6,502 bases of DNA, taken from assembly GCA_040757115.1 (NCBI GenBank), contig JBFLYA010000212.1, positions 1-6,502 of the forward strand, read 5' to 3'. Shown piece after piece: positions 1 through 6,502 of this stretch. This DNA comes from a bacterium (lineage in GTDB: Bacteria; UBA9089; CG2-30-40-21; SBAY01). The notes below the pieces were generated by a model. That model was not told the DNA's origin. It was given only the letters and a program-made list of their open reading frames with translations, and did no database searches. Position 1 is the first letter of the stretch. Each line of letters opens with the position of its first letter. A program made the translations under genes and the position numbers.

Positions 1-96
1 CTACCAATATATCGTTCCTACGGAACTGATTGATTTGTCTATCTATTTCTACCGATATTATGTTCCTAACGGAACGATTATTCTCCTGCCTTATTT
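1..96. repeat. Two tandem 48-bp units with GTTCC/GGAAC palindromes
   Basis: Two 48-bp units (1-48 and 49-96) both begin CTACC-ATAT and end in TATTT. Each contains a palindrome: GTTCC-TAC-GGAAC at 14-26 and GTTCC-TAAC-GGAAC at 62-75. The unit centres have diverged, but the period and the palindromes are kept. The array may extend left of the window. It lies downstream of the minus-strand toxin gene and looks like a dispersed intergenic palindromic repeat (inference). It is too divergent and spacer-free for a CRISPR. Confidence 0.5.
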
Positions 97-150
97 ATGG
101 GTATTATCCTATGTAGACTTCCAGTTAATAACCGCTATATTTTTCGTAGG

Positions 151-729: not shown

Positions 730-954
730 ACTAAGAAACTCATTTTGTTTTATGTCGTGTATTCCATACCAGTCAGCCACAAGCTCAAACACGCCTTTAT
801 TTATTTTGAATCCAATATCATAGCCGGGATTTTTTGTTGGAATCATCAAGTCAACCTCTGTGGTCATCCCACCGTATCCCCGTTTCTTGACTCTGTCTTC
901 TACGGGTTGATATCCAAGGTCTTGCAGGGCTTTTAGTAAATGTTCTTTTTGTAA

Positions 955-1040
955 CTATTCACCATTCACCATTCACAATTTCTTCCCTAAATTTCCTTAA
1001 TAATGGTGAATGGTGAATTGTCAATTGTGAATTGTGAATT
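955..1040. repeat. Inverted heptamer array 1 (ATTCACC / GGTGAAT)
   Basis: The left arm (955-980) is built from 7-base words such as ATTCACC and ATTCACA. The right arm (1002-1040) carries the complementary words AATGGTG, AATTGTC and AATTGTG. The arms can pair around a central AT-rich spacer. The same architecture with different words recurs at 1291-1357 and 2219-2291. Confidence 0.7.
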
Positions 1041-1721: not shown

Positions 1722-1876
1722 AATCTTTTCCAACTGATAAGAATTTGTTTTTTGGATATTTTTTGCTTCGCAAGATTTTCGTTTTGCTCGAATTCGAATA
1801 TTAGATTCACTTTTGCTCATTATGGAGATATTTTACCAAAGATTTTAACTCATGTCAATAGAAATTTGCCTACTGC

Positions 1877-2160
1877 CTGTGATTCAGACACTGGACATCA
1901 GACACAAGACTATAGATTCTATTTATGCAGGAAATTAGTGACATTTGGGAAACCATCCTCAAAACTTCACTCCCTGAATTTTTCCTGAGCCTTACCTATG
2001 TCAGTGACAGTATCAGTGTCAGTGTCAGTTAAGGAAATGTTTTCAACACTTCCAACTCCTTCAACACTTTCAACACTTCCAACTCTTCCAACATTCTTCT
2101 GCAATTTCTGCCCGCTTTAGTCTGAGGTCTGATGTCTATAGTCTACTGTCTAAATCACAG
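1877..2160. repeat. Inverted pair of GAC-heptamer arrays bounding 284 bp
   Basis: The left arm begins CTGTGATTCAGAC (1877-1889) and continues in 7-base words ending in GAC (ACTGGAC, ATCAGAC, ACAAGAC). The right arm ends GTCTAAATCACAG (2148-2160), the reverse complement at 12 of 13 positions. It too is built of 7-base words (GTCTGAG, GTCTGAT, GTCTATA). Between them lie two further word-repeat tracts (2001-2030 and 2041-2096). The region could be a non-coding element with inverted ends, or two pieces of one dispersed repeat family. Confidence 0.55.
2041..2096. repeat. Direct short-word repeats TTCAACACT / TTCCAACTC
   Basis: Six consecutive words of 8 to 10 bases alternate between TTCAACAC-type and TTCCAACTC-type. 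Together with the TCAGTG-rich tract just upstream (2001-2030) they form low-complexity DNA without coding potential. Confidence 0.65.
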
Positions 2161-2179
2161 TTCCAGGTAAAAAAAATAC

Positions 2180-2208
2180 TTGCAATTAATCTTAATTTAA
2201 GGTATAAT
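2180..2208 (+). promoter_or_regulatory. Sigma70-like promoter for the FN3 gene
   Basis: TTGCAA (2180-2185, four of six consensus positions) and a perfect TATAAT (2203-2208) are separated by exactly 17 bp. Transcription would start near 2215 and give a leader of about 95 bases that contains the whole hairpin 2219-2291. This is the best promoter-like sequence in the window and lies at the left edge of the cassette array. Confidence 0.6.
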
Positions 2209-2308: not shown

Positions 2309-3025
2309 ATGATGTTAAAAAATATCATAAGATTAGTTATTGCTATTTATTTAGGTGGGGATTTTTATACTTATGCGGCGGATAAGTTAGAATTAGATGA
2401 GTTAACTATAACTTTACCAACGACAACTGTTTCAAGCACATCCTCTCTTCCTTCTACTTCATCTACTCTGTCTTTTGAGGACATTTTTAATCAAACTTCA
2501 GAAGGTATCTTGACGCCAGCTCTTAAAGAGATAGTCCCGCCTACTTCTATTAAAGATTTAACGGTTGTCCATAAAAGACAGGATTCTATTTCCTTAACCT
2601 GGACTACTCCAGGAGGAAGTGTGACGACCTATGATATTCGCTATTCCCTTGTTCCAATTACAGATGAGAATTGGGATGATACTATCCAGGTAGAAAAAGA
2701 GCCAAAACCAGGGAGTTCAGGAACCCTTGAGCGATGGACGATAGGAAATTTATCTCCTCAAACTACCTACTACTTTGCGATTAAAACCTCAGATGAAACA
2801 TCAAATTGGTCTCCATTATCCAAAATAGCAAACTGCACAACCTTTAAATTAGAAGATACGGATATTCCTCAGACAATAAAATTTATAGTTGGCTGTGAAT
2901 ATGCGATGGGAGATATTAGGGTCAGACCGGGGGAGATATTAGGGTCAGACCGTGAATGTGGAATGCACAATAATTCGGTGAGGCAGAGGAAAAGGAAAAG
3001 ACAGCGAATCAGAGCTTTTGTCTAA
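2309..3025 (+). CDS. Secreted fibronectin type III protein, 3'-truncated and fused to cassette DNA
   Basis: The protein has 238 residues. The start is supported by AGGGGG 6 bases upstream. Residues 1-24 look like a signal peptide, with Lys4 and Arg8 before a short hydrophobic run and probable cleavage after TYA. A Ser/Thr-rich linker (38-55) follows. Residues 77-179 form one fibronectin type III domain, with TSIKDLTV, SLTW (W98), YDIRYS, the core LSPQTTYYFAIKT and W167. FN3 domains bind proteins or carbohydrates or act as spacers in extracellular proteins. From about residue 200 (DNA 2908) the frame enters repeat DNA shared with 6188-6406. This adds an Arg/Lys-rich tail (RQRKRKRQRIR), and the stop TAA (3023-3025) lies inside the attC1 R'' box. 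The natural C-terminus, perhaps more domains or an anchor, is missing. Confidence 0.75.
   Translation: MMLKNIIRLVIAIYLGGDFYTYAADKLELDELTITLPTTTVSSTSSLPSTSSTLSFEDIFNQTSEGILTPALKEIVPPTSIKDLTVVHKRQDSISLTWTTPGGSVTTYDIRYSLVPITDENWDDTIQVEKEPKPGSSGTLERWTIGNLSPQTTYYFAIKTSDETSNWSPLSKIANCTTFKLEDTDIPQTIKFIVGCEYAMGDIRVRPGEILGSDRECGMHNNSVRQRKRKRQRIRAFV
2908..2952 (+). repeat. Tandem 22-bp duplication with GGTCAGACC palindrome
   Basis: Positions 2908-2929 and 2931-2952 are identical 22-bp copies separated by one G. Each contains GGTCAGACC (2920-2928 and 2943-2951), four-base arms around an A. A third copy, with one change, opens the other long repeat at 6188-6208. The duplication sits exactly where the FN3 coding sequence stops looking like itself, so it may mark a recombination or insertion junction. 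Confidence 0.75.
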
Positions 3026-3150
3026 CCCTGCGTTGCAGTTGACGGCGGGGGACTGTGCCGTGGTCAGAGTTTTGTGGTCTCTCAAAGTTTTATCTTGCTA
3101 TCAAACTTTTGTGGTAATCCTCCCCGCCGCACCTGAACTTTATCGTTAGG
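2932..3150 (+). repeat. 219-bp direct repeat, copy 1 (includes attC1)
   Basis: This matches 6188-6406 without gaps and with four mismatches (2940, 3012, 3102, 3119). The unit holds 88 bp of purine-rich cassette 3' sequence and nearly all of an attC site. Its near-identity indicates a recent duplication or cassette gain from the same source. Confidence 0.95.
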
Positions 3151-3151
3151 C
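3020..3151 (+). other. attC1 integron recombination site (132 bp)
   Basis: R'' is GTCTAAC (3020-3026) and R' is GTTAGGC (3145-3151). The inner arms GTTGCAGTTGACGGCGGGG and CCCCGCCGCACCTGAAC pair with an unpaired G and an unpaired A on one side, the extrahelical bases that direct integrase strand choice. The long centre (about 3050-3118) is the variable terminal structure. Cleavage would be in R' between G3145 and T3146. It closes the cassette that holds the FN3 frame. Confidence 0.88.
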
Positions 3152-3202
3152 AATCCATTTGTTTCCTATATATAAAGAAAATAAACTTTTGAGGGATTTT
3201 TA

Positions 3203-3652
3203 ATGGTAAAAAGGATAATAATAAGTATAATAATAATTATAGTAATAGGCTGTGGTAGGACTCAAGAGATAAAGACTAAAGAACTTATTAAAAAGTTCAA
3301 TGGAATGAGTTTTCAATTGAGTATTCCACAGAGGACTTATTATAGGGATATTAAAGATAAACCCTCAATAGAGTTTAATCTTGACATCGTCAGTGACAAT
3401 ATCGCCATTAGACTATTTGAAGGAGAAGATACAAATGGTCGATTAATTACTGATGCAGTCGTTATTCTACGAATAACCGTGGAAGGAATTAAAGGATACA
3501 ATGAGGAAATATTAGTTTGTCGTGATGGAATCTATAAAGCCCACCCCCCATGGTTAAGTGGTAGTATGACGCAAAATCTTGAAATACTCGTTCAATACAA
3601 AGGAAAACAAACTTCTGTGATGAAAGCCAAAGTTCTACTTGTAAAGGGATAA
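3203..3652 (+). CDS. Predicted lipoprotein with YtkA/FixH-like domain
   Basis: This 149-residue protein starts with a signal peptide, VKR followed by an isoleucine-rich core. It ends in the lipobox V-I-G-C, with lipidated Cys17, so it is likely anchored to a membrane facing the periplasm. Residues about 35-147 look like a small beta sandwich. TDAVVILRITVEG (83-95), CRDGIYKAHPPWLSGSM (106-122) and the closing strand VMKAKVLLV resemble YtkA-like/FixH-type domains (pattern 'DA.V.l.v.m...dGvYka...L.G.w...v.v'). The family match is from pattern memory and is moderate; the biochemical role is unknown. GAGGG (3191-3195) is its ribosome site. It starts 58 bp after the attC1 cleavage point and shares the cassette with the next gene, 19 bp downstream. 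Confidence 0.75.
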   Translation: MVKRIIISIIIIIVIGCGRTQEIKTKELIKKFNGMSFQLSIPQRTYYRDIKDKPSIEFNLDIVSDNIAIRLFEGEDTNGRLITDAVVILRITVEGIKGYNEEILVCRDGIYKAHPPWLSGSMTQNLEILVQYKGKQTSVMKAKVLLVKG

Positions 3653-3671
3653 AAATTAAATAGGAGTAAAA

Positions 3672-4211
3672 ATGAAAAATGACGAAGCAAAAAGTCTCAT
3701 CGGGTGCTGTGGAATATATTGCGGGTTATGCAACAAGTACCAATCAAAAGCACCAAGCAGATGTATTGGTTGCAAATTGGGTGAACAACATTCATGGTGC
3801 AATATTTGGAACTGCTGTGTAACGAAGCGTGGATTTGAGACTTGTACCGAATGTAGTGAAATATTTAGTTGTGAAATTTTCCAAAGAAGAAAAGTTACAG
3901 AATGGATTCCAGCCGCTGATAATTTACGCCAAATTAAAGAAGTCGGTTTAGAACATTGGTTACAAGAACAAAAAGAAAGACAAAGATTAGTAGAAGAGTT
4001 ACTACAGAATTATAATGAAGGCCGATCAATGAATTTTTACTGTAAAGTCTGTGAAAGGATGTCGCTTGAGTTGATTAACAAGGCAATAAAAGAAGCGAAA
4101 GAAAAACTTGTAAGAGAAAAAGTAGATAAATCTGATATAAAATCAAAAGCAAAAGTTTTGAAAGGAATAATGAAAGATTTGGCACTAAAGGCTAATGTTA
4201 GTTTGAATTGA
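3672..4211 (+). CDS. DUF3795 cysteine-rich protein
   Basis: This 179-residue cytoplasmic-looking protein has dense cysteines in its first 70 residues: C12, C13, C17, C20, C31, C34, C43, C48, C49, C58, C61 and C67. They sit in DUF3795-type phrases (CGIYCGLC, CIGCK, CTECSEIFSCE). These probably bind zinc or another metal. The second half is helical and charged, with the family-like phrase LLQNYNEGRSMNFYCKVCERM (two more Cys, 124 and 127), so the domain seems complete. The family's function is unknown. AGGAG (3662-3666) lies 5 bases before the ATG. The stop is 14 bp before the R'' box of attC2, a classic cassette layout. It probably shares its transcript with the upstream lipoprotein. Confidence 0.82.
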   Translation: MKNDEAKSLIGCCGIYCGLCNKYQSKAPSRCIGCKLGEQHSWCNIWNCCVTKRGFETCTECSEIFSCEIFQRRKVTEWIPAADNLRQIKEVGLEHWLQEQKERQRLVEELLQNYNEGRSMNFYCKVCERMSLELINKAIKEAKEKLVREKVDKSDIKSKAKVLKGIMKDLALKANVSLN

Positions 4212-4225
4212 AAGATTATTTTGTT

Positions 4226-4285
4226 GTCTAACAACTCGCTGCAGCCGACCTCGCTTTGCTCGGCGGCTGAGCTTGGTCGTTAGAC
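4226..4285 (+). other. attC2 integron recombination site (60 bp, short type)
   Basis: R'' is GTCTAAC (4226-4232) and R' is GTTAGAC (4279-4285). The inner arms GCTGCAGCCG (4238-4247) and CGGCTGAGC (4264-4272) pair with one extrahelical G, and a short loop lies between them. This is the classic 59/60-base element and is quite different from the long attC1, 3 and 4. It ends the lipoprotein/DUF3795 cassette (3146-4279, 1134 bp). Cleavage would be between 4279 and 4280. Confidence 0.93.
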
Positions 4286-4636
4286 AGGCCGGGCAGACAA
4301 GAAGGAGTAAGGAGGAGTTATTCCTGGTGGAAGTTTCGGTGAGAATATTTGCTCCTTTAGTGGTCTATACCATGCCTACGAGATTGATGCTTTCTTGAAA
4401 GAGTTGCTTATCCATTAGAAGCAACAGGGGGAAGCTAAGAAAGTCTACTGAAAGGTGATAGTTAGGTAAGATAGAGGAAGCAAGAAGAAACAGACGGCGA
4501 AGTGCAGCTTTTTCTAACCATTCGCTGCACCTGACTGCGGGGGCTGTGCCGTAATTAGAGTTTTGTGGTATCTCAAGCTTTTATCTTGTTTACAAAGTTT
4601 GGTGGTAATCCGCCCCGCAGCAGGTGAGCTCTATCG
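4280..4636 (+). other. 357-bp cassette without a convincing gene
   Basis: This is the cassette between the attC2 and attC3 cleavage points. No frame has a good start and family match. A short frame, about 4313-4420, ends ENICSFSGLYHAYEIDAFLKELL plus two residues; GGAGGAG sits just before it but there is no ATG. Read with a frameshift (VRIFAPLVVY, then YEIDAFLKEL) it loosely recalls the C-terminus of class V aminotransferases, so this may be a decayed gene end. The match is weak. The rest (4421-4511) is purine-rich and mildly similar to the DNA preceding attC1 and attC4. Confidence 0.5.
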
Positions 4637-4642
4637 TTAGAC
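4512..4642 (+). other. attC3 integron recombination site (131 bp)
   Basis: R'' is TTCTAAC (4512-4518) and R' is GTTAGAC (4636-4642). The inner arms GCTGCACCTGACTGCGGGG and CCCCGCAGCAGGTGAGC pair perfectly apart from one extrahelical G and one extrahelical A. By my hand alignment it is roughly 80% identical to attC1, including the central structure. Several differences are paired changes that keep the stem (for example GTT/AAC to GCT/AGC). It closes the gene-poor cassette, with cleavage between 4636 and 4637. Confidence 0.92.
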
Positions 4643-4654
4643 TAAAAGAGATTA

Positions 4655-4714
4655 AACCACGAAGGACACGAAATAAAATTTGATGAAATATCTAATAAAG
4701 TTAGCAAATATTAA
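4655..4714 (+). pseudogene. GxxExxxY-family remnant (N-terminal stub)
   Basis: The plus strand encodes NHEGHEIKFDEISNKV, SKY and then a stop. This is the same N-terminal block as the fragment at 1066-1172 (HEVKFDELSNRV). There is no ATG in frame, an upstream stop lies at 4643-4645, and the conserved IGCAIEVH continuation is lost. The stub begins 19 bp after the attC3 cleavage point, so this cassette may once have begun with a GxxExxxY gene. Confidence 0.6.
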
Positions 4715-4921
4715 ATATGCTATTATATAATCATAAGGGATTAGGAATTAAATCCCCCTTTCAATTGTAGATAGGAATCAAAAAAAAGAGATATCGCTAT
4801 ATCTTATTGAAAATCAGATGGTTGTGCTAAATTTTTGCCTTTAAATAGAGGGGAAGTTCCGTTAAAAAGTGGGGGTGAAAGAAAGGTTCGAGGTGTGTGA
4901 AGGCTAATAAACCTGTGCTGG

Positions 4922-4940
4922 TCCTGAACTTGATTCAGGA
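4922..4940. repeat. Palindrome TCCTGAA-CTTGA-TTCAGGA
   Basis: Seven-base perfect arms (4922-4928 and 4934-4940) flank a 5-base loop. The words resemble a 'CTGAACTTGATTCAGGA' palindrome that is dispersed in many bacterial genomes (from memory). No T-run follows, so a terminator role is unlikely. Confidence 0.5.
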
Positions 4941-5194
4941 TAGGTTAGGAATCAACCCTCAATTTTATCCGAAAGCGTTGTTTTTATAGATAGCAGGTGA
5001 GATTTAGCGTGCTTTTTTTGTGCCTGATTAGAAAGTCTGATGGGCTAAGTTTATCCTTATTCACCATCCCATAAAAAGGTGCGAAATAGAAGAAATTTAT
5101 CGAATAATTACAAAAATATTATTCGTTTATATATCGGTGGAAGTGAGTTGATTTTTAAAGAATCAAATAATCTTTGAGAAAGGAGGACAAAGAG

Positions 5195-6016
5195 ATGTTA
5201 TTTTTATCAAGGAAGACAAATAGGTTATTGGTGATAAGCGTGTTGGCTGTAGTGTTTTTAAGTTGTGGTTTGATGAGGGAAACGGCTGCCTATACTTTAT
5301 TTAGTGACGATTTCGAATCAGGCTTGGATTTAGCAACAAAATGGAAAACAGAAACCATTGCAGGTGCGACTTGGGTATTAGCAGGAGATGCGAGCAATAA
5401 ATTTATTACCGCTCAACCACACATGGGAGCTGGGGATCGACATCTGGACATCGTTACCCAAAAAAACGATTTTTCAGACTTCACCTTCAACTGGAGTATG
5501 CAATTTAAGAACCAGGGTTGGCATGTAGACATCCGGCACGTATGCTTTCGCTGTGGCGATCTTTCTCCTATAGAGGCTCATTCCGGCTATTATCTTATCA
5601 TTCAAGCCCAGAATGTTTTTACTAATCATTCTCACATCAGACTTATGAATTACCGACAAACAGGTCCCAATTACAATTTAGTCAGTATGGATCTTGGGCC
5701 AAATTATTTTGAGCTCTCAAAGTGGTATAACTTTGAGTTGGAAGCAATAGGGAATAGTTTCAATCTAAAAACATGGGAGCAAGGGAGTCCCTATCCGAAT
5801 AATTGGCTATTCACGGCTGTGGATACAAGCAGTACCCCATTTAATAGTGGTAGAATTGGATTTGGCGATTATTGGGGAGGAATTACCTATGTAGACAATG
5901 TAAGAGTAGATTCTCCGATTCCTGAGCCAGCAACGGTATTACTATTCACTTGTGCAATAGTAGGTTTGGGAGTTTGGAGAAGAAAAATTCGTGTCGAACC
6001 CAAGTTCATGATCTAA
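5195..6016 (+). CDS. PEP-CTERM sorted exported protein
   Basis: The start chosen is the ATG at 5195, because AGGAGG (5181-5186) lies 8 bases upstream; a TTG at 5174 would place the ribosome site inside the gene. The 273-residue product begins with a signal peptide (SRKTNR, a hydrophobic core at 11-26, probable cleavage near ETAA-Y33). Residues 34-238 look like a beta-sandwich domain of the concanavalin/LamG kind: LFSDDFESGLD at the front, GRIGFG and VDNVRVD at the back. No catalytic motif is recognised. The C-terminus is a textbook PEP-CTERM tail: PIPEPATVLL (PEP at 243-245), a membrane helix 247-260 and WRRK. Exosortase systems cleave such tails and export the protein to the cell surface or matrix. 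No exosortase gene is in the window. The gene sits inside an integron cassette (4637-6401). Confidence 0.9.
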   Translation: MLFLSRKTNRLLVISVLAVVFLSCGLMRETAAYTLFSDDFESGLDLATKWKTETIAGATWVLAGDASNKFITAQPHMGAGDRHLDIVTQKNDFSDFTFNWSMQFKNQGWHVDIRHVCFRCGDLSPIEAHSGYYLIIQAQNVFTNHSHIRLMNYRQTGPNYNLVSMDLGPNYFELSKWYNFELEAIGNSFNLKTWEQGSPYPNNWLFTAVDTSSTPFNSGRIGFGDYWGGITYVDNVRVDSPIPEPATVLLFTCAIVGLGVWRRKIRVEPKFMI

Positions 6017-6083
6017 AAAATAAGTTGTGTGTTATCAATAAGTTACAGATTAGGGGGAGATGAGGGTCAACCTTGAGTGAGTG

Positions 6084-6112
6084 TTGACAAGAGGTATAGA
6101 TTTAGGTATGAG
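6084..6112 (+). promoter_or_regulatory. Possible promoter after the PEP-CTERM gene
   Basis: A perfect TTGACA (6084-6089) is followed at 17 bp by TATGAG (6107-6112, four of six). It would read through attC4 into the DUF4160 gene. One good box in AT-rich DNA can arise by chance. Confidence 0.3.
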
Positions 6113-6187
6113 TTATTTCTTTGGATAACAAGGAGTTAGAGACACAAGATAAAGAAGCAACTTTGAGGTCAATTAAAAAAAATTAAA

Positions 6188-6406
6188 GGAGATATGAGGG
6201 TCAGACCGTGAATGTGGAATGCACAATAATTCGGTGAGGCAGAGGAAAAGGAAAAGACAGCGAATCAAAGCTTTTGTCTAACCCTGCGTTGCAGTTGACG
6301 GCGGGGGACTGTGCCGTGGTCAGAGTTTTGTGGTCTCTCAAAGTTTTATCTTGCTATTAAACTTTTGTGGTAATTCTCCCCGCCGCACCTGAACTTTATC
6401 GTTAGG
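6188..6406 (+). repeat. 219-bp direct repeat, copy 2 (includes attC4)
   Basis: This is the gap-free partner of 2932-3150 with four mismatches (6196, 6268, 6358, 6375). Here the repeat lies about 170 bp beyond the PEP-CTERM stop and is not part of a gene, whereas in copy 1 it is translated as the FN3 tail. That supports the view that the repeat is a cassette 3' end and not coding DNA. Confidence 0.95.
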
Positions 6407-6407
6407 T
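6276..6407 (+). other. attC4 integron recombination site (132 bp)
   Basis: R'' is GTCTAAC (6276-6282) and R' is GTTAGGT (6401-6407). It is identical to attC1 except for two central bases and the last R' base (T for C). The inner arms carry the same extrahelical G and A. It closes the PEP-CTERM cassette, with cleavage between 6401 and 6402. Confidence 0.9.
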
Positions 6408-6443
6408 GTATAACTGACATACGAGGAGAGGGTAAATTATACA

Positions 6444-6502
6444 ATGCCAACAATTAAAAATATCCCAGGTCCTTATCGGTTTTTCTTTTATAGCTTCGAT
6501 TG
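6444..6502 (+). CDS. DUF4160 family protein, 5' end only (cut by window edge)
   Basis: Only 19 complete codons are present: MPTIKNIPGPYRFFFYSFD. This is the typical N-terminus of DUF4160 proteins, which usually continue with an E/N-PPHIHV motif and run to about 80-100 residues. They often pair with a DUF2442 protein in putative toxin-antitoxin modules, a frequent integron cargo. GGAGAGGG (6425-6432) lies 11 bases before the ATG. The start is 42 bp after the attC4 cleavage point, so this is the first gene of the next cassette. The rest of the gene and any partner lie outside the window. Confidence 0.75.
   Translation, partial: MPTIKNIPGPYRFFFYSFD

Follow-up and report, generated by a model that had tools for sequence, protein, structure and literature searches.

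A transposon-end-like arm joined to attC as a composite tail behind unrelated genes in the chromosomal integron of an uncultured bacterium

Sedentary chromosomal integrons, such as those of Vibrio and Xanthomonas, carry many co-oriented and similar attC sites of ~130 nt, have an integron integrase gene (intI) in the genome, and hold short cassettes of unknown-function or toxin-antitoxin type. Mobile elements are also associated with attC, namely group IIC-attC introns and IS1111-attC elements, for which a role in the making of cassettes has been proposed. Introns linked with integrons have been reviewed (PMC7923331). A different kind of element, TIRYT or TIRtron, encodes Y1 HUH transposases with a C-terminal DnaA-like HTH, and its terminal repeats contain GGGGWSAS (PMC3733652; PMC6006769, subclass 2.1). 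The systems IntI/attC and TnpA-REP have been treated in parallel as single-strand systems, with no link drawn between the two (PMC8266576). Degenerate REP units that adjoin unrelated stem-loops in Pseudomonas (PMC3733652) are a loose precedent for the arrangement reported here.

The locus described below shares all the listed traits of the sedentary integrons. Unlike in these, the repeat unit reaches ~90 nt upstream of R'' and starts with a transposon-end-like arm, and several of the intI copies are broken. The association of attC with a mobile element is shared with the group IIC-attC and IS1111-attC elements; here, however, the repeated unit has attC as its own 3' part instead of targeting it, and the window has no intron match, an Rfam search of it having given no match at the gathering score. 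No report of such a composite was found in the open-access literature.

The window, that is, the whole stretch of DNA that was analysed, is the entire 6,502-bp contig C212 of a 4.32-Mb genome (462 contigs, rated 99.87% complete), and it forms part of a large sedentary chromosomal integron in a bacterium that has not been cultured. The left half contains minus-strand genes for a RelE/ParE toxin, a RelB-like antitoxin and a nucleotidyltransferase. In the right half, four co-oriented attC sites bound three complete cassettes and the beginning of a fourth:

2309-3025, plus strand: ORF of an fn3-domain protein; the reading frame crosses the attC1 extension and stops at a TAA within R'' of attC1
2931-3019, plus strand: attC1 extension, consisting of the transposon-end-like arm (GGGAGATATTAGGGTCAGACCGTGAATGTGGAATG) and a purine-rich linker
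3020-3151, plus strand: attC1, long type, 132 nt (R'' GTCTAAC at 3020-3026, R' GTTAGGC at 3145-3151)
3146-4279, plus strand: cassette A, from R' of attC1 to R' of attC2, with a putative lipoprotein ORF (3203-3652) and a DUF3795-like ORF (3672-4211)
4226-4285, plus strand: attC2, short type, 60 nt, without extension (class 1 attC model, 63.3 bits, E=2.5e-13)
4280-4636, plus strand: cassette B, gene-less, with no ORF above 41 codons
4458-4511, plus strand: diverged linker part of the extension before attC3, without a clear arm (profile positions 38-87, E=0.003)
4512-4642, plus strand: attC3, long type, 131 nt (own finder, covariation, long-attC model)
4637-6401, plus strand: cassette C, with a PEP-CTERM protein ORF (5174-6016) followed by the composite module (6187-6407)
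6187-6275, plus strand: attC4 extension, arm and linker, 98% identical to the attC1 extension
6276-6407, plus strand: attC4, long type, 132 nt, 98% identical to attC1
6402-6502, plus strand: beginning of a further cassette, with a DUF4160-like ORF that starts at 6444 and runs off the contig after 19 codons

To the left of the fn3-domain ORF no attC or attI was found in the window, and this ORF may or may not be a cassette gene. Two of the cargo names proposed in an earlier note on this DNA could be compared with family cut-offs. The PEP-CTERM name passes that of NCBIfam TIGR02595 (17.6; cut-off 16) and misses that of Pfam, and the DUF3795 name falls just under its Pfam cut-off (21.4; cut-off 22.6).

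The four sites are genuine attC. Our attC finder, which looks for R''/R' pairing plus an L''/L' duplex, returned on the window exactly the four plus-strand sites that the earlier note had placed there, and one weaker site elsewhere in the reversed-sequence control. All four display the traits that the note had read in them, with R'' (NYCTAAC) paired with R' (GTTAGNN), inner L''/L' arms and an invariant extrahelical G. Two of the checks that the note had proposed were run, by covariance model and by folding, with the results that follow. A covariance model made from nine attC of class 1 integrons on six plasmids, with the variable loops shortened, found attC2 with the score listed above and matched 28 places in the genome. 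The sites of ~130 nt were missed because this model lacks their long loop (~70 nt), and a second model was therefore built from 27 long attC of this genome. It found all four window sites, three of which are training sequences, and in an outside check on plasmids it matched the class 1 attC of aadA1 (E=1.7e-11), blaOXA, catB8, blaGES and blaIMP-1. The bottom-strand folds of the window sites gave z values of −3.0 to −4.2.

Covariation among the 27 long sites points in the same direction. In the stem, 95.5% of the cells are paired, and 46 cells show double changes, compared with a mean of 18.3 after shuffling (reached in 0 of 500 shuffles); pairs such as C-G/T-A and C-G/G-C are exchanged as sets. 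Sliding the stem partner lowers the pairing to 33 to 58%, and the extrahelical positions 16 (G) and 23 (A) are invariant in the alignment. It is hardly conceivable that these are chance hairpins or REP-like repeats that merely resemble attC: nothing weighty speaks for it, the REP-like character of the arms being all that could be cited, and it is at odds with the reciprocal covariance-model matches with class 1 attC, the covariation, the spacing and the co-orientation. This explanation is already refuted in effect.

The array extends well beyond the window. At least 131 attC matches with E≤0.001 were obtained in the genome with the long-attC model (from only 150 candidates scored), and a loose attC pattern hit 138 genome places, compared with 2 for the reversed pattern. 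The sites are clustered and co-oriented within contigs, for instance 12 of 12 on both C118 and C98. Hairpins scattered singly, which the earlier note had named as evidence against an array, were seen for a few sites on the chromosomal contigs C5, C15 and C143. An intact integron integrase gene lies on C39 (13643-14572, minus strand; TIGR02249, 368 bits, cut-off 265), followed by plus-strand attC at 15825, 16545, 18538 and onwards in the classic layout, so that this contig holds one complete integron. The integrase is of a widely transferred type, with relatives 60 to 83% identical in MAGs labelled Deltaproteobacteria, Nitrospirae and Planctomycetes. All copies of a second, more canonical intI type (C30, C63, C118, C114 and C324) are truncated, interrupted or cut off by a contig end. 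Elsewhere, another genome of the same phylum (G010) has an intact integron integrase (471 bits), and the congener G001 gave no intI above the TIGR02249 cut-off.

These data bear on the choice, left open in the earlier note, between the interior of a sedentary integron and a CALIN, that is, an attC stretch without any integrase that is the remnant of a dead integron. The absence of intI from the window contig, the damaged state of the canonical copies and the lack of an intI over the cut-off in G001 would suit a CALIN. Against this, an intact intI adjoins the attC array on C39, and the assembly cuts the window at both ends, which makes a CALIN quite improbable. The genome thus combines structured attC, two or more in the same orientation with cassette-like spacing, with a TIGR02249 integrase that adjoins attC outside the window contig. 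The reading as a cassette array and sedentary interior stands, the appearance of a CALIN is probably an effect of the fragmented assembly, and the term "integrase-less" used in the note holds only for the 6.5-kb contig.

In two of the window sites attC is part of a larger unit, a composite that the earlier note had not seen. A repeat finder returned a direct repeat (2932-3150 and 6188-6406) of 219 nt, 98% identical and 88 nt longer than attC itself, and attC1 and attC4 are the 3' portions of two near-identical ~220-bp modules, each made of transposon-end-like arm, purine-rich linker and attC. About 50 copies of the module are present in the genome, where 51 places match the arm, or core of the extension, nearly all before this attC class; conversely, the same ~90 nt is nearly always found ahead of this class. 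Conservation sets in at about −92 relative to R'', remains at 0.85 to 0.95 and drops to ~0.4 within 20 nt past R', so that the module ends are sharp, with near-background conservation on either side. The linker next to R'' was found at 51 of 51 extension sites tested and at ~8 further sites without an arm, compared with 1.2% of random windows. With an iterated profile, a weaker extension was also detected before other attC classes, including attC3 of the window.

The module is found on 36 of 86 complete cassettes. The cassette bodies fall into 62 clusters, 26 of which, unrelated in content, include module cassettes, and therefore one tail serves many unrelated genes. Among the genes so tailed are what we take, from reading of the sequences, to be PIN-domain, RelE-like and aspartyl-protease-like genes. 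Outside this genome, G005, G007 and G010 have an arm and linker 75 to 80% identical, ahead of different AT-rich hairpins that were judged by eye to be attC-like, and G014 has a single copy of the extension, 93% identical, which suggests transfer. The extension was not found in plasmids or, as an exact 26-mer, in viral contigs. Four relatives were searched for an empty site corresponding to the single C5 copy; none was found, the flanks being absent from these genomes.

Two functions for the extension were considered. A conserved coding C terminus was rejected, as it does not agree with the indels among the copies, which shift the frame. Refolding of the attC hairpin by the extension would bring a gain of only 1 to 2 kcal/mol; in the predicted fold the bottom-strand L''/L' stem is kept, although the extension competes with the R''/R' pairing.

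Comparison with other members of the phylum revealed a resemblance, at the level of sequence, between the arm and the terminal inverted repeat of Y1 transposase elements. Genes with Y1_Tnp and Bac_DnaA_C domains in G010, G003 and G006 lie inside ~1.05-kb elements with inverted ends (GGGGTCAGACCTCGAAAGCAGAATTAACT or, in G006, a variant), and these elements fit the TIRYT/TIRtron description: in L264 and L265, and probably in L260, terminal inverted repeats with GGGGWSAS lie on both sides of a Y1_Tnp gene. Against the NCBIfam REP-associated transposase the Y1 protein reached 69 bits, below the cut-off of 80, and it is therefore a relative and not a clear RAYT. Between the L088 module copy and the transposon end, 33 of 36 positions agree (score 30; shuffled maximum 14), and the copy at window attC1 scores 17 against 14. 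Other copies score 14 to 22 (shuffled maxima 14 to 18), and this test alone does not set the commonest module class, with 14 against a shuffled maximum of 16, apart from chance. The link between arm and transposon rests on the L088, L090, L065 and G010 copies together with that of window attC1.

Further likenesses to the TIRYT elements were observed. Two arms facing each other form palindromes (GGGGTCAAACC...GGTTTGACCCC), and these are dispersed in this genome and in others of the phylum. At attC1 the outermost ~22 nt of the arm is tandemly duplicated (2908-2929 and 2931-2952), and the end of the G006 element L260 has the same kind of outer-end duplication. These elements differ from the module, which lacks a transposase gene and has just one arm, the position of the other being taken by an attC hairpin. 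The two terminal inverted repeats of a MITE are likewise missing, the arms in the arrays having the same orientation as attC in 29 cases and the opposite one in 1. The only Y1 gene with ends of this kind that was seen in the window's own genome is decayed.

The left end of the module carries traces of earlier attC sites. The first hint came from four homologous nucleotidyltransferase cassettes, two of which end in a short attC and two in a cut attC followed by the module. A loose pattern for attC remnants was discarded as unspecific (6 of 44 versus 1 of 71; 8% of random windows), and an attC profile was scanned over all cassette bodies instead. Remnants were found in five module cassettes, where they stop at model positions 34, 42, 55, 97 and 123, and all five end 84 to 97 nt ahead of the cassette's own R'', which is the left end of the module. 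Among the 50 cassettes without the module no remnant was found (Fisher p=0.011, with the small sample of five cases). Two further likely cases of a cut attC were recognized by eye, L074 and, in G001, L237. Short-read assembly may permute the left and right flanks of a 220-bp repeat; mis-joining inside the repeat would not, however, produce the left joints, since each lies within the length of one read. The missing 3' halves of the cut attC were not found downstream, a pattern search having yielded nothing but unrelated sequence and complete sites that the finder had overlooked, and one-sided joining or replacement is therefore favored over simple insertion.

As a whole, these observations are best explained if attC spreads in this genome as a composite tail that converts genes into cassettes, or reconverts existing ones, a reading to which we assign a probability of about 0.7. 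The genes of the window would then be ordinary cassettes that IntI would excise and insert at attC, whereas a large share of the attC in this lineage would spread as the 3' part of the ~220-bp module and not alone. Joined behind unrelated genes, the module would make cassettes of them; joined behind cassettes that already have an attC, it would cause loss of the 3' part of the old site, and the cassette would be re-tailed. We infer, on good support, that the module was added as one unit, and we conjecture that the joining was done by a TIRYT-type Y1 (HUH) single-strand transposase, which would cut at the arm and join the folded module to new 3' ends. IntI would account for the right end (R') and for the subsequent shuffling. 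The single arm, compared with the two of a transposon, speaks against the composite tail as a standard nonautonomous element. Other points that weigh against our reading are the weak match of the commonest module class to the transposon end, the decayed state of the Y1 gene in this genome, the failure to find an empty site for the C5 copy and the small number of truncated sites.

Two other explanations were weighed. The locus could be an ordinary sedentary integron with homogeneous attC, in which the upstream sequence is a selected, extended functional part, such as a host-factor binding site or a regulatory element, and has nothing to do with mobility. The linker beside R'' is indeed the most widely kept part, being present also at sites that lack the arm, and arm and linker persist in other families of the phylum though the hairpin sequence differs. 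We nevertheless find this explanation rather doubtful, given that the extension is absent from over half of the attC sites in the arrays that contain it, and that this explanation accounts neither for attC remnants cut at the left end of the extension nor for the likeness to transposon ends. Alternatively, cassettes may have fused, replication slippage deleting attC hairpins and so joining a gene to the next, gene-less cassette of arm, linker and attC. Gene-less cassettes that end in the module are common (c1, c2, c25, c30, c36, c54, c66 and c73), and near 9808 in L065 the sequence immediately before the module is TATCGTTAG, as at a cassette start. At most joints, however, a GGAGATATT-type sequence precedes TTAGGGTC with no trace of R', and if the deletions were random, 26 unrelated bodies would not share one left end again and again, for which reason fusion appears unlikely to us.

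With the composite tail as the preferred reading, the appended piece bears a marker on its upstream side by which its left end can be recognized in dozens of genes of unrelated kind, and the old attC cut at this end reveal the order of events. A joint tail behind dozens of unrelated genes may thus show how genes turn into movable cassettes. Only tentatively do we extend this to the suggestion that in this phylum a TIRYT-type transposase makes new cassettes by joining a folded arm/attC tail 3' of genes and of existing cassettes. If this is true, tail joining driven by TIRYT would be a mechanism of cassette genesis; and if the link to the transposon holds, IntI and Y1 HUH transposases, both of which act on folded single-stranded DNA, would cooperate in the making of cassettes.

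One canonical type of the integron integrase gene (intI) was found in several broken copies in two genomes of one genus, the window's own genome (G000) and a congener (G001), where the lesion differs in each copy or a contig end cuts the copy.

G000, contigs C30, C63, C118, C114 and C324: broken canonical intI copies
G001, contigs C77 and C297: broken canonical intI copies

The broken copy on C118 sits within an attC array. An integrase gene on C118 is interrupted (locus L065, about 6700-6950) by a dispersed repeat (frame YQYIVPTELIDLSIYFYRYYVPNGTIILLPYLWVLSYVDFQLITA), one copy of which forms the left end of the window's own contig, window 1-145.

The composite module (transposon-end-like arm, purine-rich linker and attC) is the end of a recurrent gene-less cassette (GTTAGACTAATAAAAATAATCACACAGAGACACAAAG...AAAATAAAAAGGAGATATTTTAGGGTCAACC), which was observed on loci L083, L062, L065, L088 and others. 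A Y1 transposase domain is part of a frame of ~1111 codons on L072, in a cassette that carries no extension (arm plus linker).

L072 (G000, C205) 1846-2208, minus strand: Y1_Tnp domain, 151.8 bits
L070, cassette c38, about 5825-5960, minus strand: attC cut by the palindrome GGAAATAGGGGGACATTTCCCCTATTT
Window 954-1039, 1291-1360 and 2219-2291: three long near-perfect palindromes

This second palindromic element, GGAAATAGGGGGACATTTCCCCTATTT, leaves the R' of the L070 attC in place and is also present on L094, close to a module. The three window palindromes are simple-looking sequence located between minus-strand genes.

An extension of the arm-plus-linker kind also precedes short AT-rich attC-like hairpins, e.g., GTCTAACAAAAAAATGAACCAGGCAGAGCTGGTTATTTTTGTCGTTAGGG.

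L196 and L202 (G010), L193 and L200 (G007), L194, L201 and L219 (G005), L062 about 7015-7062 (G000): attC-like hairpins of this type

These hairpins may represent a distinct type of attC in this phylum.
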